In this document: in pieces, positions 49,241-59,830 of the stretch
Layout: each line of letters starts with the position of its first letter
How positions within the stretch are numbered: position 1 is the first letter of the stretch
The notes under the pieces: model-generated
What the model saw: the letters and a program-made list of their open reading frames with translations, nothing else
Told to the model about the DNA's origin: nothing
Database searches by the model: none
Made by a program: the position numbers and the translations under genes
Source: Egicoccus halophilus
GTDB lineage: Bacteria; Actinomycetota; Nitriliruptoria; Nitriliruptorales; Nitriliruptoraceae
DNA: 64,000 bases
Direction: 5' to 3'
Assembly: GCF_004300825.1 (NCBI RefSeq)
Contig: NZ_CP036250.1
Span: 1,178,001-1,242,000 of the forward strand

Positions 49241-50029
49241 ATGAGCACCTCGTCGGTTCCCCGGTCCCCTGCCGCGCGTGACTACCCGCTCGAGCAGATC
49301 GCCGCCTCCATCCAGGACGAACGCCGACGCGTGTCGGTGCTCGGCGAGGTGCGCGAACTGGTCTTCGGGGCCCAGGACGGTCTCGTGTCGACGTTGGCGG
49401 TCGTGGCGGCCGTGGTGGGCGCCAGCAGCGACAACCGGGCGGTGCTCGTCGCGGGTCTCGCGGCCGCGGTGGCCGGCATCTTCTCCATGGCCGTCGGCGA
49501 GTACATGGGCTCGAAGAGCCAGGACGAGATCTTCGACTGGCACCTCGACGACGAGCGTCGCGAGGTCGTCGAGCGGCCGGCGGAGGCCGAGGCCGAGGTG
49601 GCCTGGCTGTTCATGGAGGAGGGCATGCCGGCCGACGACGCCCGGGAGGTCGCCCGCCTGGTCGCGCGCCACCCCGACTCGCTGCTGGCGACGATGGTGG
49701 CCAAGGAGCTCGGTCTGACCTCCGCGCTCGGACGCGAGACGGTCGGCTCGCCCCTGCGCGGTGCGTTGGTCATGGGTGGCGCGTTCGCCGGCGGCGCGCT
49801 CGTGCCGGTCCTGCCGTTCCTGTTCGCCGAGGGGGAGGGTGCGCTGGTGCTCGCCACACTGTCGACCGGTGGCGTGCTGTTCGCGATCGGCGCCGTCAAG
49901 GCCCGTTGGACGGCCCGCTCGTGGTGGGCGTCGGGCCTGGAGATCCTGTCGCTGGCCGGGTTCGCCGGCATCCTCGGCTACCTGTTCGGCACCGTCCTCC
50001 CGACCCTGCTCGGCGTCGGCGGCTGGTGA
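49241..50029 (+). CDS. VIT1/CCC1-family iron/manganese transporter
   Basis: A 262-residue membrane protein with five hydrophobic helices. The first helix is in LVFGAQDGLVSTLAVVAAVVGAS, with the Gly/Asp pattern of VIT proteins; VGEYMGSKSQDE follows; the long cytoplasmic helical stretch between TM2 and TM3 (~85-155) is rich in Glu, as in the metal-binding domain of VIT. These proteins export Fe(II) or Mn(II) in exchange for protons and so protect from overload. The ATG at 49241 is chosen by homology; its ribosome site is weak. A possible iron box lies upstream. Confidence 0.92.
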   Translation: MSTSSVPRSPAARDYPLEQIAASIQDERRRVSVLGEVRELVFGAQDGLVSTLAVVAAVVGASSDNRAVLVAGLAAAVAGIFSMAVGEYMGSKSQDEIFDWHLDDERREVVERPAEAEAEVAWLFMEEGMPADDAREVARLVARHPDSLLATMVAKELGLTSALGRETVGSPLRGALVMGGAFAGGALVPVLPFLFAEGEGALVLATLSTGGVLFAIGAVKARWTARSWWASGLEILSLAGFAGILGYLFGTVLPTLLGVGGW

Positions 50030-50112
50030 GCCGTCGCCCGGCTTGGCAGGTGCCCACCGGCGCGGCAGGATGCGCCCTCGCCCGTCCGGGGGCGGGAGCG
50101 AGAGGACGCGGG

Positions 50113-51378
50113 ATGACGGCACCGATCGGTGTGTCCGAGGTCAACCGGCTGGAAGCCGAGACCGAACGGCTGTTGGCCTTCGGCCGCCGCGGCCGCCATC
50201 CCGCCGGCGGGTTCGCGTGGCTCCAGGACGACGGCACGCCGGATCTCGATCGCGACGTCGAGCTGTGGATCACCTGCCGGATGACGCACGTCTACGCCCT
50301 CGGGCACCTGCTCGGCGTCGACGGCGCGGCCGAGCTGGTCGACCACGGGATCGCCGCCCTCGCCGGTCGACTGCACGACGACGAGCACGGCGGCTGGTAC
50401 GCGGCCGTGGGCGCCGACGGTCCGACCACCCCGACCAAGGGCGCCTACGAGCACGCCTTCGTCGTGTTGGCCGCGACCTCGGCCGTCGTCGCGCAACGTC
50501 CCGGCGCCGAGGCCGTCCTCGACGAGGCACTGGCCGTGCAGGAGCGCCACTTCTTCCACGAGGGCGACGGCGCGGTCGTCGACGTCTACCTCGACCGGGG
50601 GTTCGCTGACCTCGAGGACTACCGCGGCGCCAACGCCAACATGCACACCGTCGAGGCCTACCTGGCGGCCGCGGACGTGACCGGCGACGAGGTCTGGCTC
50701 CAACGGGCCGACCGGATCGTGCACCGCTTCGTGCACGGCGCAGCCGGTGGCCACGGCTGGCGCCTGCCGGAGCACTTCGATCCCGACTGGCGGCCACGCC
50801 TCGACTACCACCACGACCAGCCGGCGCACCCGTTCCGCCCCTTCGGCGCCACGGTGGGGCACGGCTTCGAGTGGGCCCGCCTCGCGCTGCACCTCGAGGC
50901 CGCCCGGCATCCGGAGGTGTCGCAGGCGGGCGCGGGCACGCAGCTGCGCAGCGACGCGGCGGCGCAGTTCCGACGCGCCGTCGAGGACGGGTGGTCCGTG
51001 GACGGTGCGCCCGGGTTCGTCTACACGACCGACTTCGACGGGACGCCGGTCGTCCGCAACCGGCTGCACTGGGTGGTCAACGAGGCGACCAACGCGGCGG
51101 CGGCGCTGTACCTGGCCAGCGGTGAGGCGGTCTACGCCGACTGGTACCGCACCTGGTGGACGTACGCCGAGGACGTCTTCGTCGACCGGGAGGCCGGGTC
51201 GTGGCGGCACGAGCTCGACCCGGACAACCGTCCCGCGGCGAGCGTCTGGGCCGGCAAGCCGGACCTGTACCACGCGGTGCAGGCCACGCTGATCCCGCGA
51301 CTGCCGCTGGCGCCCTCGCTCGCGACGGCGCTGGCCGAGGGGCGCCTGGACACCTCCGGGGCCTCGGCGCGGACCTGA
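50113..51378 (+). CDS. AGE-family sugar epimerase/isomerase
   Basis: A 421-residue (alpha/alpha)6-barrel enzyme of the N-acylglucosamine 2-epimerase superfamily, which includes mannose isomerase and the sulfoquinovose isomerase YihS. The active-site histidine regions NANMHTVEAYLAA, GATVGHGFEWARLAL and RLHWVVNEATNAAAALY are present. ATP-binding leucine-zipper features of true GlcNAc epimerases are lacking, so an aldose-ketose isomerase is more likely. The ATG at 50113 fits the known N-terminus (SEVNRLEAETERLLAFG) with GAGAGGACG ahead. Substrate not certain. Confidence 0.85.
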   Translation: MTAPIGVSEVNRLEAETERLLAFGRRGRHPAGGFAWLQDDGTPDLDRDVELWITCRMTHVYALGHLLGVDGAAELVDHGIAALAGRLHDDEHGGWYAAVGADGPTTPTKGAYEHAFVVLAATSAVVAQRPGAEAVLDEALAVQERHFFHEGDGAVVDVYLDRGFADLEDYRGANANMHTVEAYLAAADVTGDEVWLQRADRIVHRFVHGAAGGHGWRLPEHFDPDWRPRLDYHHDQPAHPFRPFGATVGHGFEWARLALHLEAARHPEVSQAGAGTQLRSDAAAQFRRAVEDGWSVDGAPGFVYTTDFDGTPVVRNRLHWVVNEATNAAAALYLASGEAVYADWYRTWWTYAEDVFVDREAGSWRHELDPDNRPAASVWAGKPDLYHAVQATLIPRLPLAPSLATALAEGRLDTSGASART

Positions 51379-51506: not shown

Positions 51507-51983
51507 TCAGCCGACCGGTGCGATCCGGCCGGCCGACGGCACGTCGGCGACCAGGCGACGCCCGGCATCGACCGGTGACGCCTCACCGGTGTCCACCGCG
51601 AGCGACGAGCGGTCGATCACCGGCGGCGGCTGCGTGCCCGGGACCCGGCGGTAGAGCTGGGCGGGGATCCGGTCGCTGCCGGCGGCGAGGTGGGCGGCGA
51701 GCACGTGGCGGCCACGCAGGACGTACAGCCGACGCTCGTGCAGCAGCGACACGTACGAGGCCTCGAGCGGGTGCACGGTCCGCCCGGCGTGCCAGCGGAC
51801 ACGCTCGGGGTCGATCTCGGGATCGAGGGTGAAGACCTCGAGTCCGTAGCGGGGGACCAGGACGCGCACGCCGTTGGTGACCCACTCGCCGGCGGGCCAT
51901 CGGGACTCCTCCAGGACGTGGATGCGTCCGGGCAGGTAGTCGGGCAGCTGCCGGGGCAGCTGCGGCGGTACACGCAGGTTCAC
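51507..51983 (-). CDS. conserved hypothetical protein
   Basis: A 158-residue protein with no domain I can name. It begins VNLRVPPQLPRQLPDYLPGR and is rich in strands with many Arg and Trp (RWPAGEWVTNGVRVLVPRY, HERRLYVLRGRHVLAAHL). No signal peptide or membrane segment. The GTG at 51983 has GAGGAA 6 nt ahead; a longer frame exists but would be Arg/Ser/Pro-rich and without ribosome site. It lies 79 bp downstream of the large EAL-GGDEF gene on the same strand. Confidence 0.65.
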   Translation of the reverse strand: MNLRVPPQLPRQLPDYLPGRIHVLEESRWPAGEWVTNGVRVLVPRYGLEVFTLDPEIDPERVRWHAGRTVHPLEASYVSLLHERRLYVLRGRHVLAAHLAAGSDRIPAQLYRRVPGTQPPPVIDRSSLAVDTGEASPVDAGRRLVADVPSAGRIAPVG

Positions 51984-52062
51984 AGCGTTCCTCGCGAACG
52001 GACGGTGAGGGAGGGAGGGTGGGGCGGTCGGCGGCGGGAACGCAGGACCCGACGGGTCCGAC

Positions 52063-55062
52063 TCATCGGACGCACCGGACCGGATGTCCCAGCGTACGGG
52101 ATGCCAGCGCCTCGACCAGGGGAACGACCTCCGCGGTCGGCCGGCTCTCGTCGTCGCCGTAGCACTCCAGCAGCCAGCGGGTGCCGGCGGCATCCGTCTG
52201 GGTCACGGCGACGACCCACCGGAACCCCTCGGCATCGAGGATGGCGCGTTCGTCGGGGTCCGCGGCGGGGTCGTCGACCTCGACGGCGAAGCCCTGCCCG
52301 TCGTCGAACGCCGCGGCCGTCACCGGATAGTCCTCGATGCGGAACTCGTCGTCGTCCTGGGGCGGGTCGAACGAGGCGAGCGGACGACGACGGCGCAGGT
52401 GACGGGCGGCCGTCGAGAGCACCGAGCTGCCGGGCAGCGCCCGGCTCAACGTCCAGCGGTTGCCGTCGACCAGGCTCAGCACGGCCTCACCGAGACTGCT
52501 CAGGGCCTCGCGGGGGTCGGGTGCACCGTCGACGCCACGACTCCAGCGGGCGAGCGAGGTCTCGACGGCCCGGCCGGGCCGCTCCCGGCCGGGCCGTACG
52601 GAGCGGGCGGGGAACGGTTCGGTCCGGCGGGCCGTCGGCGCGGGGCGCCCGTCGTCGAGCACGACCGCCACCCCGGACGTCTTCGCGCGGTACTGCGCGG
52701 TGTCGGCGCGGGCGAGCAGCGCGCTCAGCGACCGGTCCTCGGGCGTGGAGGTGGCCACGCCGATCGCGGCGCGCGGCTGACCCGGGGCGTCGGCGAGCAT
52801 GGTCAGCAGGCGCGACACGAGTTCGAGCGCGAGCTCGGCGTTCCCGGGGAGCACCAGGCAGAACTCGTCCCCGCCGAGTCGCGCCGCCAGCGCGTCCGCA
52901 TGGGGGATCGCCACCCGGCTGAGGACCTCACCGACGGTGATGAGCAGTTCGTCGCCGGCCGCGTGACCGAAGACGTCGTTGACCTCCTTGAGGCCGTTGA
53001 CGTCCAGCATGACGACCGTGACCGGGGTGGTGTCCGTGCTCGCCGCCAACAGCTCGCCGGCGTGGGCCTCGAACCGGCGCCGGTTGGCGAGCCGGGTCAT
53101 GGCGTCCTCGCCGGCGAGCCGGGCGAGGTGGTCGAGGTGGTCGGTCCGGCTGATCGCCAGGCCGACGAAACCGGCGACCGCATCGGCATAGCCGACGTCG
53201 GCGGCGGTGAAGGGCGCCTCGGCGAGCGCGGTGGTGGCCAGCAGTGCGCCCCACACCGCGCCGTCGACGACGATGGGCACCCCGATGGCGGAACCGCGTC
53301 CCCAGTGCCGCAGCAGGGCGCTCGCCCGGTCACTGGTGCTGGGGTCGTCGGTCGCGATCAGCAGCACGCCGCGCTCCAACAACATCCGACGGGTTCCCGG
53401 GACGTCGTCGAGGTCGTGGACGGCACCGGCGGGGCGACGCTCGATGCCGGCCGCGATCTCGCCGGCGTTGACCAGCAGGCGGAGCTGACCGGCGTCGCGC
53501 TCCCAGCGCGAGACCGTGACCGTCGCGGCCCCCAGCGTCGCGCGGGCCGCGTCCGCGGCCACTTCGAGGACGTCGAGCAGGTCGCCGGGGGTGCCGATGG
53601 CCTGGGCGACGCCGACCAGGCCGCGCAGGCGTGCCGCCGCGTCGTCGCGCCCGCGCAGGCGTTGCGCGAGCTCGGCCAGCGCCGGGGCGGGAGGTGCCGA
53701 GACGGCGCCGCCGTGCCACCAGGCGGAGAGCCGGTCCACCAGGCGCTGCCGTTCGCCGCGATCCGCGTCGCCGAGCAGGTCGTCGAGCGTGTCGTCGAGG
53801 GCGCGGTCGATCCGGCGGGCGACGACCAGGCGTGCGACGGCGGCGGCAACGGCTCCCGGGTGGGCGCCGGGATCCAGCGCCGGGGCGTGTGCCAGCCCGG
53901 CCTCGAGTTCCAGCCACGCCGGCGCGGCGTGCACCGTCCGCAACACCTGGAGCAGGTCACCAGTACCGATCAGGGGTGCGAGCAGGGCCACGCGGTCGAT
54001 CCGGTCCTGCGGCAACGACAGTGCCGAGCCCACCACCCGGGCCGCCTCGAGCGCGTCGGCGCGCAGGGAGCCGGGACGTGGGTCCCCGGCCACGACCACG
54101 GTCGCCGCCGCCGTGGCCAGATCGAGTGCGGGGCCGCTCAACCGGGGAGGTGCCGGGGGGAGCGGTCGCTCGGCGGCCGCGCGCGAGAACGCGCGCACGG
54201 TCTCGCCGTCGCCGGCGTCGGCGTAGTGGAAACCCTGCCCCAGCTCGCAGCCCCACTCGCGCAGGCGGACCACCTGCTCGTGGCGTTCGATGCCCTCGGC
54301 GACGACCTGCAGGCCCAGCGAGGTGCCGAGTCCGATCGCCGCCTGCACGACCAGCGCCCGTCCGCGGGCGGGGCCGGCCTGCGTCCCCACGGCCGCGACG
54401 AAGGAGTGGTCGAGCTTCAGCATCGTGAACGGTGCCGACGCGAGCAGGTCGAGCGTGGCGAAGCCCGTGCCGAAGTCGTCGAGCGCGATGCCCACGCCGA
54501 GTCCGGCCAGCGTGTGCAGGTCCTGGTGGCCGGCGTCGAGCGGCGAGAACGCCGCCGTCTCGGTCACCTCGACGACCAGCGCGTCGGCCGGCAGCGCGGT
54601 GGCCGCCAGGGCGCGGCGCACCAGGTCGACGACCTCGCCGCCGCCGAGCTGCAGCGGCGAGACGTTGACGTGCAGGCGCAGGGAGGCGAGCGCGGACTCC
54701 CGTCGCCAGGCGGCCAGTTGGCAGCAGGCCTGCACGAGCACGTGGGCACCGAGGGCGGGCACGAGCCCGCTGCGCTCGGCCACCGCGACGATGCCGGTGG
54801 CGTCGGCCAGCGCCGGGCTCGGTGGGTCGTCGAGGCGGACCAGGGCCTCGACCGCCACCGGTCGGCCCGTGGCCAGCTCGACCACCGGTTGGTAGCCGAC
54901 CGACACCAGCCCGTCGGCGAGCGCGTCGGCCAACGACGACGCGTCGGGCTCGACGTCCGTGCCGGTGCTCTCGCGCCAGCGTCGCAGCGTCGCGGCGACC
55001 GCGCCACGCAACGCGCGCGGTACCGGCACGGCTGCCGGGTCCGCCGTCGTCGCAGCTCTCAC
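52063..55062 (-). CDS. EAL-(degenerate HD)-GAF-GGDEF c-di-GMP signalling protein
   Basis: A 999-residue cytoplasmic protein. EAL domain (~45-270): EALVR with Glu72, LRLHVNVSPLQL, VEVTETAAF, LDDFGTGFATLDLL with Asp195-Asp196, LKLDHSFV, VVAEGIERHEQV and GQGFHYA, so phosphodiesterase activity is likely. Middle (~290-460): AARVVGSALSLPQDRIDRVALLAPLIGTGDLLQVL (read as landmarks) resembles HD-GYP but the metal His/Asp are missing. GAF (~500-640), then GGDEF (~650-840) with GGDEF at 730-734; the I-site RxxD is absent. The last ~120 residues are unassigned. EAL-first order is unusual. The GTG at 55062 is chosen from two (the other is 55071). It is divergent from kaiC. Confidence 0.88.
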   Translation of the reverse strand: MRAATTADPAAVPVPRALRGAVAATLRRWRESTGTDVEPDASSLADALADGLVSVGYQPVVELATGRPVAVEALVRLDDPPSPALADATGIVAVAERSGLVPALGAHVLVQACCQLAAWRRESALASLRLHVNVSPLQLGGGEVVDLVRRALAATALPADALVVEVTETAAFSPLDAGHQDLHTLAGLGVGIALDDFGTGFATLDLLASAPFTMLKLDHSFVAAVGTQAGPARGRALVVQAAIGLGTSLGLQVVAEGIERHEQVVRLREWGCELGQGFHYADAGDGETVRAFSRAAAERPLPPAPPRLSGPALDLATAAATVVVAGDPRPGSLRADALEAARVVGSALSLPQDRIDRVALLAPLIGTGDLLQVLRTVHAAPAWLELEAGLAHAPALDPGAHPGAVAAAVARLVVARRIDRALDDTLDDLLGDADRGERQRLVDRLSAWWHGGAVSAPPAPALAELAQRLRGRDDAAARLRGLVGVAQAIGTPGDLLDVLEVAADAARATLGAATVTVSRWERDAGQLRLLVNAGEIAAGIERRPAGAVHDLDDVPGTRRMLLERGVLLIATDDPSTSDRASALLRHWGRGSAIGVPIVVDGAVWGALLATTALAEAPFTAADVGYADAVAGFVGLAISRTDHLDHLARLAGEDAMTRLANRRRFEAHAGELLAASTDTTPVTVVMLDVNGLKEVNDVFGHAAGDELLITVGEVLSRVAIPHADALAARLGGDEFCLVLPGNAELALELVSRLLTMLADAPGQPRAAIGVATSTPEDRSLSALLARADTAQYRAKTSGVAVVLDDGRPAPTARRTEPFPARSVRPGRERPGRAVETSLARWSRGVDGAPDPREALSSLGEAVLSLVDGNRWTLSRALPGSSVLSTAARHLRRRRPLASFDPPQDDDEFRIEDYPVTAAAFDDGQGFAVEVDDPAADPDERAILDAEGFRWVVAVTQTDAAGTRWLLECYGDDESRPTAEVVPLVEALASRTLGHPVRCVR

Positions 55063-55168
55063 GTCGCCCACCCCAGGTGTCCGAGTGCCCCGTCGGCTCC
55101 CGCCGACGGCACCCGAGGGTCCCCGCGCCGGCCGGTCGCCGAGCGCGCACCGTAGCGGGGGCGGACGG

Positions 55169-55174
55169 CTAGGG
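55169..55174 (+). promoter_or_regulatory. -10-like TAGGGT ahead of kaiC
   Basis: TAGGGT lies 69 bp before the kaiC ATG in the 181-bp divergent gap to the EAL-GGDEF gene. A shared regulator for both is possible. Confidence 0.4.
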
Positions 55175-55243
55175 TCCGGGTCGGCGACCGGCCCGCGTAC
55201 GACAGCCGTGCGGCCGAGGCGGTCACCTGCGACGAGGTGCCCC

Positions 55244-56746
55244 ATGCCGATCACGCCGGTACAGAAGGTGCCGACGGGGATCCCGGGCTTCGACACGATG
55301 GCGCACGGGGGGCTGCCGGTCGGTCGGACGACGATCGTGGCCGGCTCCGCCGGCTCGGCCAAGACGCTGTTCGCCTCGCAGTTCCTCGCCGGCGGCATCC
55401 TCGAGCACGACGAAACGGGCGTCTTCGTCACGTTCGAGGAGACACCCGTCGACCTGCGCCGCAACCTCGTCTCGCTCGGTTGGGACGTCCAGGCCTGGGA
55501 AGAGGCCGGGCGCTGGCGCTTCGTCGACGCCTCGCCGGATCCGGCCAACGACCTGGCCCTGGACGGCTCGTGGGACTTCGACGCACTGATGATCCGCATC
55601 GAGCGGGCGGTCGAGGCGGTCGGGGCCAAGCGGGTGGTGGTGGACTCGCTGGGTGCGGTCTTCAGCGAGTTCTCCGACAGCGGGCGGGTGCGTCGGGAGC
55701 TGCGCCGCCTGGCCCGGGGCCTGCGTGAGCTCGACGTGACCGCGGTCATGACGGTCGAGCGCACCAGCGAGTACGGCGACATCAGTCGCTGGAACGTCGA
55801 GGAGTTCGTGGCCGAGGACGTGGTGATCCTGCGCAACATCCTCGAGGACGAGGCGGCGCGCCGGACCATGCAGATCCTCAAGTTCCGCGGGACGACCCAC
55901 CGCAAGGGCGAGTTCCCGTTCGCGGTCATCAACGACCGCGGCATCGTCGCGTTGCCGCTGGCGGACGCGGCCCTGACCACCCTGCAGTCGCGCTCGGAGC
56001 GGATCCGCTCCGGAAACGACGAGCTGGACCGGATGTGTGGTGGTGGACCGTTCCGCGACTCGATCAGCCTGGTCTCGGGAGCGACGGGCACGGGCAAGAC
56101 GCTGACGGTCACCGAGTTCCTCGCGGGTGGGGCGCGCAACCAGGAACGGTGCCTGCTGTTCGCCTTCGAGGAGAGTCGGGCACAGCTGGTCCGCAACGCG
56201 CTGGGGTGGGGGGTGGACTACGAGCAGATGGAACGCGACGGGCTGTTGCGCATCGTCGCGGCCTATCCGGAGACCGCGTCCCTCGAGGAGCACCTGGTCA
56301 AGGTCACCGACGAGGTGCGGACCTTCGCCCCACGCCGCTTCGCGTTGGACTCGCTGTCGGCGCTGGAGCGCGCCTCGACCCTGCGCGGCTTCCGGCACTT
56401 CGTCATCGGGATCACGTCCATGCTCAAGGAGCAGGAGGTGACCGGGATGTACACGGCCACGACCCCGAGCCTCATGGGCGGGGAGTCGGTGACGGAGTCG
56501 CACATCTCGACCCTGACCGACGCCATCGTCCTGCTGCGCTACGTCGAGGTGCAGGGCGAGGTCAAGCGGGCCATCTCCGTGCTCAAGATGCGCGGGTCGG
56601 TCCACGACCGCGACATCCGACAGATCACGATCGACGGGTCCGGTATGCGCATCGGCGAGCCGTTCCGCAACATCTCGGGGGTCCTCTCCGGCGCGCCACG
56701 GCAGCTGGGTCCCGACGAGTTCGAGACCGTCGGTAGCGGCGGATAG
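55244..56746 (+). CDS. kaiC: KaiC-type double RecA-domain ATPase
   Basis: A 500-residue protein with two tandem KaiC domains. CI (~1-235): P-loop GSAGSAKT and FEETPVDLRRN with the two catalytic Glu. CII (~240-500): P-loop GATGTGKT, FEESRAQL, and the phosphorylation stretch VTESHISTLTD with Thr417, Ser422 and Thr423, equivalent to Thr426, Ser431 and Thr432 of the cyanobacterial clock protein; the following VLKMRGSVHDRDIRQITID is also KaiC-like. No kaiA or kaiB is in the window; many non-cyanobacterial KaiC proteins act as signalling ATPases instead of clocks. The ATG at 55244 starts just before the conserved VPTGIPGFD. Confidence 0.92.
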   Translation: MPITPVQKVPTGIPGFDTMAHGGLPVGRTTIVAGSAGSAKTLFASQFLAGGILEHDETGVFVTFEETPVDLRRNLVSLGWDVQAWEEAGRWRFVDASPDPANDLALDGSWDFDALMIRIERAVEAVGAKRVVVDSLGAVFSEFSDSGRVRRELRRLARGLRELDVTAVMTVERTSEYGDISRWNVEEFVAEDVVILRNILEDEAARRTMQILKFRGTTHRKGEFPFAVINDRGIVALPLADAALTTLQSRSERIRSGNDELDRMCGGGPFRDSISLVSGATGTGKTLTVTEFLAGGARNQERCLLFAFEESRAQLVRNALGWGVDYEQMERDGLLRIVAAYPETASLEEHLVKVTDEVRTFAPRRFALDSLSALERASTLRGFRHFVIGITSMLKEQEVTGMYTATTPSLMGGESVTESHISTLTDAIVLLRYVEVQGEVKRAISVLKMRGSVHDRDIRQITIDGSGMRIGEPFRNISGVLSGAPRQLGPDEFETVGSGG

Positions 56747-56793
56747 CGCGGGAGCTCCCACCCGACGGCCGGGGTGCGTCCCTGTGCGCGAAG

Positions 56794-56799
56794 TAGGCT
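56794..56799 (+). promoter_or_regulatory. -10-like TAGGCT ahead of mscR
   Basis: TAGGCT lies 39 bp before the GTG at 56839, after kaiC. It agrees with the hexamers at 17487, 36523 and 37943. Confidence 0.5.
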
Positions 56800-56838
56800 C
56801 CGCCGCGATGCAGGTCGAAGCGAGCGAGAGGGAACGTC

Positions 56839-57924
56839 GTGGCACACGCGGTCAGAGCGGTCGTGGCGAAGGCGAAGAACGAGCCGGTGACGGTGGAGAC
56901 CATCCTGGTGCCGGACCCGGGACCCGGCGAGGCGCTGGTGCAGGTGCAGACCTGCGGCGTGTGCCACACCGACCTGCACTACCGCGAGGGCGGGATCAAC
57001 GACGAGTTCCCGTTCCTGCTCGGTCACGAGGCCGCCGGTGTCGTCGAGGCCGTCGGGGACGGTGTGGAGGACCTCGAACCGGGCGACTTCGTGGTCCTCA
57101 ACTGGCGGGCGGTGTGCGGGACCTGTCGGGCCTGCAAGCGCGGTGAGCTGCAGTACTGCTTCGCCACGTACAACGCGGCCCAACCGATGACCCTGGAGGA
57201 CGGGACGCCGCTCTCGCCGGCGCTGGGCATCGGCGCGTTCGCCGAGAAGACGCTGGTGCACGCCGGGCAGTGCACCAAGGTCGACCCGGAGGCCGACCCG
57301 GCCGCGGTCGGCCTGCTCGGCTGCGGCGTCATGGCCGGCATCGGTGCGGCGATCAACACCGGCGGCATCACGCGCGGCCAGTCGATCGCGGTGATCGGCT
57401 GCGGTGGCGTCGGCGACGCCGCCATCGCCGGCGCGCAGCTCGCCGGCGCGTCGACGATCATCGCCGTCGACGTCGACGACAAGAAGCTCGAGTGGGCCGA
57501 GGGCTTCGGTGCGACCCACACCGTCAACGCCCGCGAGGTCGACGTCGTCGAGGCCGTGCAGGAGCTCACCGGCGGCCACGGTGCCGACGTCGTCGTCGAC
57601 GCGGTCGGCCGCCCGGAGACGTTCCGGCAGGCCTTCTACGCGCGTGACCTGGCGGGCACGGTCGTCCTCGTCGGCGTGCCCACGCCCGACATGACGTTCG
57701 AACTGCCGCTGATCGACGTCTTCTCCCGTGGGGGAGCGGTCAAGTCGTCCTGGTACGGCGACTGCCTGCCCTCACGCGACTTCCCGATGCTGGTCGACCT
57801 CTACCGGCAGGGCCGGCTCGACCTCGACGCGTTCGTGACCGAACGGATCACCCTCGACGACGTCGAGTCGGCCTTCGAGAAGATGCACCACGGCGAGGTG
57901 CTGCGCTCGGTGGTGGTCCTGTGA
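56839..57924 (+). CDS. mscR: S-(hydroxymethyl)mycothiol dehydrogenase
   Basis: A 361-residue zinc alcohol dehydrogenase of the class III-like type that, in mycothiol users, oxidises S-hydroxymethyl-mycothiol (formaldehyde) and reduces S-nitrosomycothiol. Catalytic zinc Cys in [16 protein letters not shown] with [12 protein letters not shown]; structural zinc Cys in [18 protein letters not shown] loop [14 protein letters not shown]; sequence matches mycobacterial MscR along its length. The GTG at 56839 has GAGAGGGA ahead. It overlaps the following MBL gene by 4 bp (GTGA), the same order as Rv2259-Rv2260. Confidence 0.94.
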
Positions 57925-58535
57925 CGGCGCGTATCGAGCACCTGGTCACGTCGGGCACCTTCAGCCTCGACGGCGGCACCTGGGACGTCGACAACAACGT
58001 CTGGATCGTCGGTGACGACCAGGAGGTCGTCGTCCTCGACGCCCCGCACGACGCCGCTGCCATCGCCGCCGCCGTCGGCGACCGTCGAGTGGTCGCGATC
58101 GCCTGCACCCATGCCCACGACGACCACGTCCGCGTGGCGCCGGAGCTCGGGGCGTTGGTCGACGCCCCGGTGCTGCTGCACCCCGACGACCGGGTCGTGT
58201 GGGACCTGACCCACCCCGATCGGGCTCCCGACGGCGAACTCGCCGACGGACAGTTGCTCGAGGTGGCGGGGATCAGCCTCGAGGTGCTGCACACCCCGGG
58301 GCACGCGCCCGGGGCGGTGTGCTTCCACGCGCCGGCGCTCGGGGCGGTGTTCTCCGGCGACACGTTGTTCGAGGGGGGCCCCGGCGCGACCGGCCGGTCG
58401 TACTCGGACCACGACACCATCGTCGCCTCGATCCGCGACCGACTGCTGACGCTGCCGGGAGACACGGTCGTGCACACCGGGCACGGGCCGACCACGACCA
58501 TCGACGCCGAGCGGGCGAACGTGCCGGGGGCCTGA
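57921..58535 (+). CDS. MBL-fold hydrolase coupled to mscR (Rv2260-like)
   Basis: A 204-residue metallo-beta-lactamase-fold protein of the glyoxalase II-like type: [15 protein letters not shown] (HxHxDH), [29 protein letters not shown] and [13 protein letters not shown] supply the metal ligands. It probably hydrolyses the S-formyl-mycothiol formed by MscR, as the glyoxalase-like step of formaldehyde detoxification, or a related thioester; this role is inferred from its strict pairing. Translation is coupled to mscR by GTGA. Confidence 0.88.
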
Positions 58536-58556: not shown

Positions 58557-58602
58557 CGCGCGCGACCTCACCGACGGTGCTCAGCCGGTGAGGTCGCGCG
58601 CG
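58557..58602. terminator. 16-bp-arm hairpin between convergent genes
   Basis: CGCGCGCGACCTCACC (58557-58572) and GGTGAGGTCGCGCGCG (58587-58602) are perfect complements with a 14-nt loop holding the stop of the oxidoreductase gene. With the neighbouring hairpin at 58519 it forms a two-stem bidirectional terminator. Confidence 0.85.
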
Positions 58603-59459
58603 GCGGCGTCGAGCACGTCGACGATCCGGGCGCCGAAGCGCACGTCGCACGGATGCGCCTCACCGGTGGCGGCCGCCTGTTGCAGGGCACGGATCGCCTC
58701 GGCGAAGGCGTCGCGGGCCTCGAAGGCCAGTCCGGTCGGCAGCTCGCGCCAACCGGGCTCCCCGTAGAAGGCCACGCGCTGCCCGGCCGCGGTCTCCGGC
58801 ATGGTGAGGCTGAGCACGAGCTGGCTCGACGCACCGCCGGTGTGCCGCAGTGCGAGATGGACGGTGTCGCGGGGGCCACGTGCGGCGCGGACCGCCTCGA
58901 CCTCGCCGAGCACCGGCAGCAGCAGCGAGAGCACGTGCGGACCGACGTCCCACAGTGCCCCGTGCTCGCGACGCCAGGGCGAGTCGCCGAAGGGGTTGCC
59001 CGGCGTGTCGAGTGCCGCCAGCAGCGTCGCTTGTCCGCCGAGCCAGCCCGACTCCGCGGCGGTCTCCTCGAGCCAGCGCGCGATGCCCGGGTCGAACCGG
59101 GAGGTGAGGAACACGATCGAGGCGACACCCGCCGCCGCGCAGGCCTCGACGACCGCGGCGGCGGCGCCGGCGTCGAGCGCGACCGGCTTCTCGAGCAACA
59201 GGTGGCACCCGGCCTCGGCGGCGCGGACGGCCAGCGAGGCCTGCACGTCGGGTGGCACCGCGAACGACACGGCGTCCACGTCCGCGAACAGCGCGTCGAC
59301 GTCGTCGTAGGCACGGGCGTCGTGCGGCGCCACCACGTCCGCGGCCTTGGCGGCATCCCGGCCCCACACGCCGACGAGCTCGACGTCCGGCGCGCCGGCG
59401 AGCGCCGGCGCATGCACCTCGGCGGCCCAGTACCCGGTGCCGACCAGTCCGAATCTCAC
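58581..59459 (-). CDS. Gfo/Idh/MocA-family oxidoreductase
   Basis: A 292-residue NAD(P)-dependent sugar dehydrogenase-like protein. The Rossmann start VRFGLVGTGYWAAEVHAPAL, the EKPVALDAGAAAAVV motif (Lys equivalent to the conserved EKP) and the beta-sheet domain with WDVGPHVLSLLLPVLG are characteristic. Substrate unknown. The GTG at 59459 with GAGGTGAC ahead is preferred; the frame runs open further upstream but reads as non-coding Arg/Pro-rich sequence. Its 3' end lies in a two-stem terminator. No neighbour helps with the function. Confidence 0.85.
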   Translation of the reverse strand: MRFGLVGTGYWAAEVHAPALAGAPDVELVGVWGRDAAKAADVVAPHDARAYDDVDALFADVDAVSFAVPPDVQASLAVRAAEAGCHLLLEKPVALDAGAAAAVVEACAAAGVASIVFLTSRFDPGIARWLEETAAESGWLGGQATLLAALDTPGNPFGDSPWRREHGALWDVGPHVLSLLLPVLGEVEAVRAARGPRDTVHLALRHTGGASSQLVLSLTMPETAAGQRVAFYGEPGWRELPTGLAFEARDAFAEAIRALQQAAATGEAHPCDVRFGARIVDVLDAAARDLTG

Positions 59460-59830
59460 GTCACCTCGCCCGTCGCGGTCCGTCGAACGGCGACAGCCAA
59501 GCAGGTGGCGCAGGTGCGCATCCCCGTCGATGCCCGGCCACCCGACGGCGACCACCCGCAGTCGCCCGGTGAGGATCGACTCGGCGAGATCCGGGGCCGG
59601 GATCGGGAGATTCGCGCGGACCGCTCGAAACGACCGGGTGGCGGCCGACCTCGGCGATGTCCGCCCGCCGTCGCCGAGGGCGTGGAACGACCCGGTGAGC
59701 TGCGCGAGCTCGCGCGCCTCGGGTGGAGTTGGCGCAGGGATTCCTGCTCGGCCGTCCCTCGCCGTGGCCGTGGCTGGACGCCGGCCGCGGCTGAGCGCGT
59801 CGCGTCCCGGTGCGCGTTCGCACCGGGCGC
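59460..59830. other. 371-bp gap without a supported gene
   Basis: No gene, strong hairpin or promoter stands out. One frame in line with the oxidoreductase (…TPPEARELAQLTGSFH…) looks faintly protein-like but has no start with a ribosome site and no known family. Confidence 0.5.

Follow-up and report, generated by a model that had tools for sequence, protein, structure and literature searches.

What might a KaiC with a complete set of phosphorylation residues do where neither kaiA nor kaiB is found beside it? The question is raised by a kaiC gene in a 64,000-nucleotide stretch of the Egicoccus halophilus genome (NZ_CP036250.1, positions 1,178,001 to 1,242,000), which is referred to here as the window. 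KaiB is commonly viewed as needed to reset KaiC. An earlier note, made from the sequence alone, had proposed that this KaiC may report to a second messenger rather than serve a clock. The features of the locus are collected in Table 1.

Table 1. Features of the kaiC locus, in window coordinates
Feature	Position	Strand	Basis or remark
N-acylglucosamine 2-epimerase family gene, left-hand synteny anchor	49906..51378 (ORF limits)	+	synteny, family match
p51507, conserved protein without a Pfam family, left-hand synteny	51507..52193	-	synteny, Pfam
Divergent EAL-GAF-GGDEF protein, about 1000 aa, start approximate	52063..55125	-	Pfam
TAGGGT, -10-like element, 74 bases upstream of the start of kaiC	55170..55175	+	chosen by eye
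kaiC	55244..56746	+	500 aa, two KaiC domains
CI P-loop GSAGSAKT, residues 34-41, Ala39 for Gly	55343..55366	+	sequence, alignment
Phosphosite block Thr417, Ser422, Thr423	56492..56512	+	sequence, alignment with other KaiCs
Gap after kaiC, 92 bases, too short for kaiB; congeners have kaiB here	56747..56838	.	locus comparison
S-(hydroxymethyl)mycothiol dehydrogenase, first cassette gene	56839..57924	+	TIGR03451, 685.6 bits against a cut-off of 512.9
Metallo-beta-lactamase-fold hydrolase, second cassette gene	57921..58535	+	domain search
Presumed Gfo/Idh-type oxidoreductase, right-hand synteny anchor	58581..59495	-	77-78% identity in two congeners

The KaiC of the window

The kaiC frame is uninterrupted by any stop codon or frameshift and encodes two tandem KaiC domains (PF06745, E 1.4e-107; Pfam). 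The protein scores 584 bits against the NCBIfam equivalog model TIGR02655 (circ_KaiC, cut-off 546.25), which places it within that family. Its best solved relative is the KaiC 8zn5 (E 1.6e-192), followed by 1u9i and many other KaiC entries. A PF06745 search of the whole contig revealed one full KaiC in the genome; two other matching places (24.9 and 19.8 bits) are partial domains and were rejected as second KaiCs. A KaiC of such similarity is uncommon and was found in 9 of 396 genomes of the phylum at E up to 1e-120. At E up to 1e-50, plasmid-borne kaiC genes appear in 18 records, all with identities below 60%, and no annotated GGDEF gene lies near kaiC in the two of these 18 neighbourhoods that were viewed.

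The window KaiC was aligned with other KaiCs, 20 proteins in all. Thr417, Ser422 and Thr423, which the earlier note had assigned as phosphosites, are equivalent to T426, S431 and T432, the phosphorylatable residues of KaiC (PMC5520375), which bears out the assignment. The T-S-T set is present in 14 of the 20 proteins, the window included, and in all six members of the window's clade, so the loss of the phosphosites in all relatives that the note had named as a refutation did not occur. Two more proteins carry T-S-S, and in four the sites are lost or changed.

The claim that all ATPase motifs are intact holds for the CII P-loop, GATGTGKT, which fits the GxxxxGKT pattern, and for the EE pairs, which the alignment places in both domains. 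It fails for the CI P-loop, in which an Ala precedes the Lys. Among the 18 of the 20 aligned KaiCs that cover this position (window included), eight have Ala, one has Ser and nine have Gly, and a further Leptolyngbya KaiC piece carries GTAGSAKT. Since KaiCs accompanied by KaiB share the Ala, it gives no ground for excluding the window protein from KaiC, and we regard it as a lineage trait, a variant within the family. The Ala could weaken the CI ATPase, though the Ala-bearing relatives keep KaiB.

Local replacement of kaiB

The window genome is a single contig of 3,980,161 bases with a completeness of 97.49%. The earlier note had reported KaiA and KaiB as absent from the vicinity of kaiC, and the same result was obtained for the entire contig. 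No PF07689 match exceeds the cut-off (best 22 bits versus 27). The gene that gives the best match was rejected as KaiB because its translation is thioredoxin-like; it adjoins a gene that, also by its translation, resembles thioredoxin reductase. The same model at E up to 10 also hits 12 of the 14 control genomes, with a single one over the cut-off. A profile built on five KaiBs from the clade to which the window belongs matches nothing in the genome at E up to 10. A search with the KaiA model PF07688 at E up to 10 likewise finds nothing in the genome; it gives matches in 5 of 14 control genomes, one of the five over the cut-off. A KaiB-like domain is also found in SasA-type kinases; no protein of this kind exceeds the cut-off of PF07689, a model that may be less sensitive to the SasA type. 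Tested as a KaiBC or KaiABC timing system, the genome thus shows neither kaiB nor kaiA in these searches. Since no distant copy of either gene was found and the phosphosites are kept in relatives, such a clock is unlikely in this species.

KaiB was found in 16 of the 17 genomes known to hold KaiC, the window genome being the only one without it. Among 66 genomes of the class, nine have KaiC at E up to 1e-60 and 12 have KaiB over the cut-off, and eight of the nine KaiC genomes are among these 12. Good KaiBs without KaiC at E up to 1e-60 were seen in G064, G022 and G024 (L052, L054 and L055), possibly as KaiC-free KaiBs or through missing contigs. In three congeners (G040, G041 and G042) and in two genomes of another genus (G051 and G052), the KaiB match begins 65-116 bases past the end of the KaiC match. 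Because the outgroup genomes G051 and G052 have the same kaiC-kaiB order, a loss of kaiB in the window's lineage, rather than a gain elsewhere, is the simplest reading. The kaiB genes of the clade lie downstream of kaiC with low scores of 48-67 bits (L042 10884-11213, L043, L044, L045 and L049); of ten further actinobacterial pairs listed, nine have kaiB ahead of kaiC. G042 also contains a second, more divergent kaiB-kaiC pair (L050, G042:C7:386500-406000), in which kaiB lies upstream and the phosphosite block is altered.

Full two-sided synteny is readable in two congeners, G041 and G042. Both are collinear with the window on the left, through the epimerase gene, p51507, the EAL-GAF-GGDEF gene and kaiC, and on the right at the presumed Gfo-type gene, which there follows an acyl-CoA dehydrogenase gene. 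Between kaiC and this right-hand anchor, G041 and G042 carry four genes, namely kaiB and those for a response regulator of a single domain, a histidine kinase with a PAS domain and the acyl-CoA dehydrogenase; at the same spot the window carries a cassette of the S-(hydroxymethyl)mycothiol dehydrogenase (a formaldehyde dehydrogenase) and the metallo-hydrolase. In G040, kaiC is followed by kaiB, the regulator and the kinase, and then the contig ends. The window dehydrogenase has no match in the three congeners at E up to 1e-120. Conversely, no ortholog of the congeners' histidine kinase or acyl-CoA dehydrogenase was found elsewhere in the window genome, where the matches share 33-37% and 27-31% identity, versus 63% and 77% between congeners, respectively.

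A kaiB remnant after the window kaiC was sought by tblastn with the KaiBs of four relatives, which gave weak matches only. The best (E 7e-4) lies inside the window kaiC and stems from the upstream part of an over-long G042 kaiB ORF; in G042 that part runs over the end of kaiC in a different frame, and the match was rejected as a remnant. At the nucleotide level, the window segment and the block of the congeners share only matches of at most 41 bases, at E 1e-4 or weaker. The comparison of loci shows that kaiB was replaced locally by the two-gene cassette. The main point beyond the earlier note is this local loss of kaiB while congeners keep it.

The kaiB-linked histidine kinase of the congeners has a conserved N-terminal domain of 150 residues with no clear family (L042 12727-13176, L043 12244-12693). 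A Pfam search at E up to 10 gave a sub-threshold GGDEF_2 match in one of two proteins, and comparison with solved structures gave none at E up to 5; neither search supported a KaiB-like or pseudo-receiver-like domain.

Constraint on kaiC and its c-di-GMP neighbourhood

Selection on kaiC was estimated with a codon model on five kaiC genes, among which G051 is the more distant member. The dN/dS on the window branch is 0.045, which is not different from 0.033 elsewhere (2dlnL 0.9); its 95% upper bound is about 0.08, and a dN/dS of 1 is rejected (2dlnL 31.7). A relaxed CI domain after the loss of KaiB is not seen, the CI value on the window branch being 0.0374 versus 0.0372, and the CII value of 0.059 versus 0.027 is not a significant rise (2dlnL 2.6). 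Other branches do differ, with lower dN/dS in G041 (0.011 versus 0.044) and higher in G051 (0.061 versus 0.031); therefore the rate of kaiC varies within the clade for other reasons. The dN/dS averages over the whole branch, and a loss within roughly its last 5% would not show; neutral decay, if any, could span at most about 5% of the window branch. Substitutions at positions where the other four proteins agree (492 columns) number 14 in the window, 15 in G040, 7 in G042, 2 in G041 and 48 in G051. These comparisons show purifying selection on the window kaiC and, because that selection persists, the protein probably still works. Upstream of kaiC, four relatives carry TAGGGT, TAGGCT or TAGCCT at -73 to -79, matching the -10-like element of the window, a motif that was picked by eye once the sequences had been viewed.

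All three domains that the earlier note had read in the divergent protein were confirmed by Pfam, with E 1.8e-53 for EAL and 2.1e-30 for GGDEF. The protein contains EALVR, NVS, EVTE, DDFGTG, KLD, AEGIE and GGDEF, which we take to be the motifs that matter in these domains. By its two domains and their signature motifs, it qualifies as a putative c-di-GMP enzyme. The EAL-GAF-GGDEF arrangement runs opposite to the GGDEF-EAL order of the three other kaiC neighbours that carry both domains, and about 200 residues past GGDEF have no Pfam match. The gene is present in the window genome, G041 and G042. It was not found at E up to 1e-60 in G040, a genome that is 77% complete; there the locus is contiguous, kaiC directly follows the epimerase gene, and both kaiC and kaiB are kept. 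Since G040 keeps kaiC without this gene, the sequences indicate that the pairing of kaiC with an EAL-GGDEF gene is not obligatory.

GGDEF and EAL domains were sought around 22 KaiC loci, and the actinobacterial ones were collapsed to 13 lineages, with the window genus counted once and G051 and G052 counted once. In six of the 13, a GGDEF/EAL gene lies no more than 2.5 kb from kaiC (the window genus, G025, G048, G364:C45, G267 and L024), or 5 of 12 without the window's genus. The other lineages are G051/G052, G023:C19, G023:C1, G042:C7, G364:C147, G383 and G071, of which three (G051/G052, G364:C147 and G383) were scored as lacking the domains on short flanks. Pfam confirmed GGDEF, or GGDEF plus EAL, in all five neighbour proteins outside the window genus. 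None of five non-actinobacterial loci (L022, L023, L025, L089 and L094; L025 without upstream sequence) has such a gene near kaiC. At G364:C45, L084 is a second kaiC that has lost its phosphosites and contains one in-frame TAG, near a PAS-GGDEF-EAL gene.

With the same probe, a random slot lies within 2.5 kb of a GGDEF/EAL gene in 0 to 5.4% of cases by genome (1.63 Mb in five genomes, that of L024 not among them). At 5.4%, p is 3e-5 for 6 of 13 and 2.6e-4 for 5 of 12, which leaves out the discovery genus; at 15%, 5 of 12 has p = 0.024. The 2.5-kb limit was chosen after the neighbourhood results were in view. As a control for signalling genes in general, histidine kinase/response regulator clusters numbered three in 1.63 Mb, none near GGDEF, with a probe that is too insensitive and a control that is too small; the same probe found no histidine kinase around the 22 loci, a result of little weight. 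GGDEF/EAL genes recur near actinobacterial kaiC above chance, and general clustering of signalling genes may contribute. The turn from a clock to a second messenger that the earlier note had suggested is in keeping with this recurrence and with the unlikely clock; against it, G040 keeps kaiC and kaiB without the gene. The association of GGDEF/EAL with kaiC was published in 2011 (PMC3164672). A 2026 paper describes a change of the S. elongatus clock by altered c-di-GMP (PMC13001216); crosstalk is thus possible, though in that case it runs in the other direction.

Candidate roles and known systems

The preferred account starts from a former kaiC-kaiB system. At this locus, kaiB was lost along with the genes next to it for the response regulator, the histidine kinase and the acyl-CoA dehydrogenase, and the formaldehyde dehydrogenase and hydrolase cassette took the place of the lost block. 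KaiC was retained under purifying selection, with its phosphosites and the conserved upstream element. By analogy with KaiC3-type biochemistry, a hexameric KaiC would most likely act as an ATPase and autokinase independently of KaiA and KaiB, and its phosphorylation level would most likely track the supply of ATP and ADP; self-sustained oscillation is not expected without KaiB. The output would most likely pass through the divergent EAL-GAF-GGDEF enzyme and hence c-di-GMP, as suggested by gene neighbourhood. This is the most economical guess because no other gene in the immediate neighbourhood was identified as a signalling gene. Taken as a whole, the account falls somewhat short of an even chance. 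A wider version, which is rather doubtful, gives KaiC two separable output branches, one through KaiB, the PAS histidine kinase and the response regulator and the other through the c-di-GMP enzyme. The window species would have dropped the former and G040 the latter, leaving here a KaiC that senses energy or time without KaiB and sets c-di-GMP; for the phosphosite-complete subgroup, this would be a signalling mode without oscillation.

It is improbable that the window KaiC is a vestige that has not yet decayed after a very recent loss of kaiB. The disappearance of KaiB and of the kaiB-linked histidine kinase from the genome would fit decay, as would the changes G113D and A117I, both among the 14 specific to the window, which lie just past the stretch that we take to be the KaiB-binding B loop. 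Neutral evolution is rejected on this branch, however, with a neutral span of about 5% at most, and the intact frame and kept -10-like element also argue against decay. An artefact, with kaiB lost in laboratory culture, carried on a plasmid outside the assembly or hidden by a misassembled contig, is hardly credible: one genome per species and a completeness of 97.49% leave some room for it, but the contig is single, the left and right flanks are both collinear, and the junction holds the two-gene cassette intact. We consider it very improbable that a protein unrelated in sequence, for instance of thioredoxin fold, stands in for KaiB so that a two-part timer persists. Fold-switched KaiB does have a thioredoxin-like fold (PMC6378743), and the best KaiB-profile match of the genome is the thioredoxin-like gene; that gene adjoins a thioredoxin reductase, as expected of an ordinary redox protein, and equally permissive PF07689 matches turn up in most control genomes.

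KaiC could instead work through another partner, a distant histidine kinase or an unknown protein, with the c-di-GMP gene an unrelated neighbour that shares the intergenic region. We rate this as unlikely, although several observations favour it. The kaiC of G040 has no adjoining EAL-GGDEF gene, and G051 shows no GGDEF/EAL in the 2.8 kb upstream of kaiC, which is all that its contig holds. Pairs of kaiC and a histidine kinase without kaiB exist elsewhere (PMC3164672), and general clustering of signalling genes may account for the GGDEF/EAL proximity. Against another partner stand the recurrence of GGDEF/EAL near kaiC in other actinobacterial lineages, in varied positions and orientations, the lack of a histidine kinase among the identified immediate neighbours of the window kaiC, and the lack of a SasA-like KaiB-domain protein over the PF07689 cut-off.

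At this locus nature has deleted kaiB and preserved KaiC and, with three congeners that keep kaiB, what KaiC does on its own can be tested in matched pairs. The link between KaiC and c-di-GMP genes, long known from gene neighbourhoods, likewise becomes open to testing in a simple setting.

Cyanobacterial KaiC3 provides the biochemical analogy. KaiC3 of Synechocystis has S-T phosphosites as in the window, and its autokinase and ATPase activities have been demonstrated (PMC6989803, PMC11372060). KaiC3 autophosphorylates independently of S. elongatus KaiA (PMC5520375), and ATP hydrolysis by the Synechocystis protein reaches about 45% of the rate in S. elongatus and is slowed by KaiB (PMC6989803). 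The KaiC of Prochlorococcus is described as constitutively phosphorylated when alone (PMC3164672). KaiC3-type kinases are nevertheless not always on their own, because Synechocystis KaiC3 works with KaiB3 and a KaiA3: its own KaiA3 promotes phosphorylation and KaiB3 enhances dephosphorylation (PMC11372060). The KaiC nearest to that of the window outside its clade is a Leptolyngbya piece of 62% identity. The Leptolyngbya pieces appear to be KaiC3, at weak forks of the tree, and a third Leptolyngbya KaiC, L089, looks like KaiC1.

Among non-cyanobacterial systems, the KaiBC of the 'orange group' shares with the window a full-length KaiC, both phosphosites, the lack of KaiA, and signalling genes adjoining kaiC (PMC3164672). 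In that group the signalling genes encode a histidine kinase or GGDEF/EAL (PMC3164672, the 2011 Ramlibacter genome paper). The group is defined there by clustered kaiC and kaiB, and KaiCs with ST or SS sites are those clustered with kaiB (PMC3164672), whereas the window has neither kaiB nor the histidine kinase. The kaiC-histidine kinase pairs of the 'dark-blue group' (Ramlibacter Rta_04330) resemble the window in a KaiC described without any kaiB in the genome. They differ in their SY, TY or SF sites and their own kinase directly downstream (same source); the window has ST sites and no adjacent kinase, and with a formaldehyde dehydrogenase following kaiC it falls outside the kaiC-Nt_HK group. 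The Rhodobacter sphaeroides KaiBC also has a KaiA-free KaiC, but its clade keeps KaiB and bears a C-terminal extension of about 50 residues that forms a coiled coil (PMC10076222); the window KaiC, in contrast, is 500 residues long and ends soon after the A-loop region. Our searches of open-licence literature listings turned up no description of such a kaiB loss beside an ST-type KaiC. KaiB-less KaiCs and GGDEF/EAL genes beside kaiC have been known since 2011 (PMC3164672); the apparent novelty lies in the local replacement of kaiB and the kinase beside a KaiC of the ST type.
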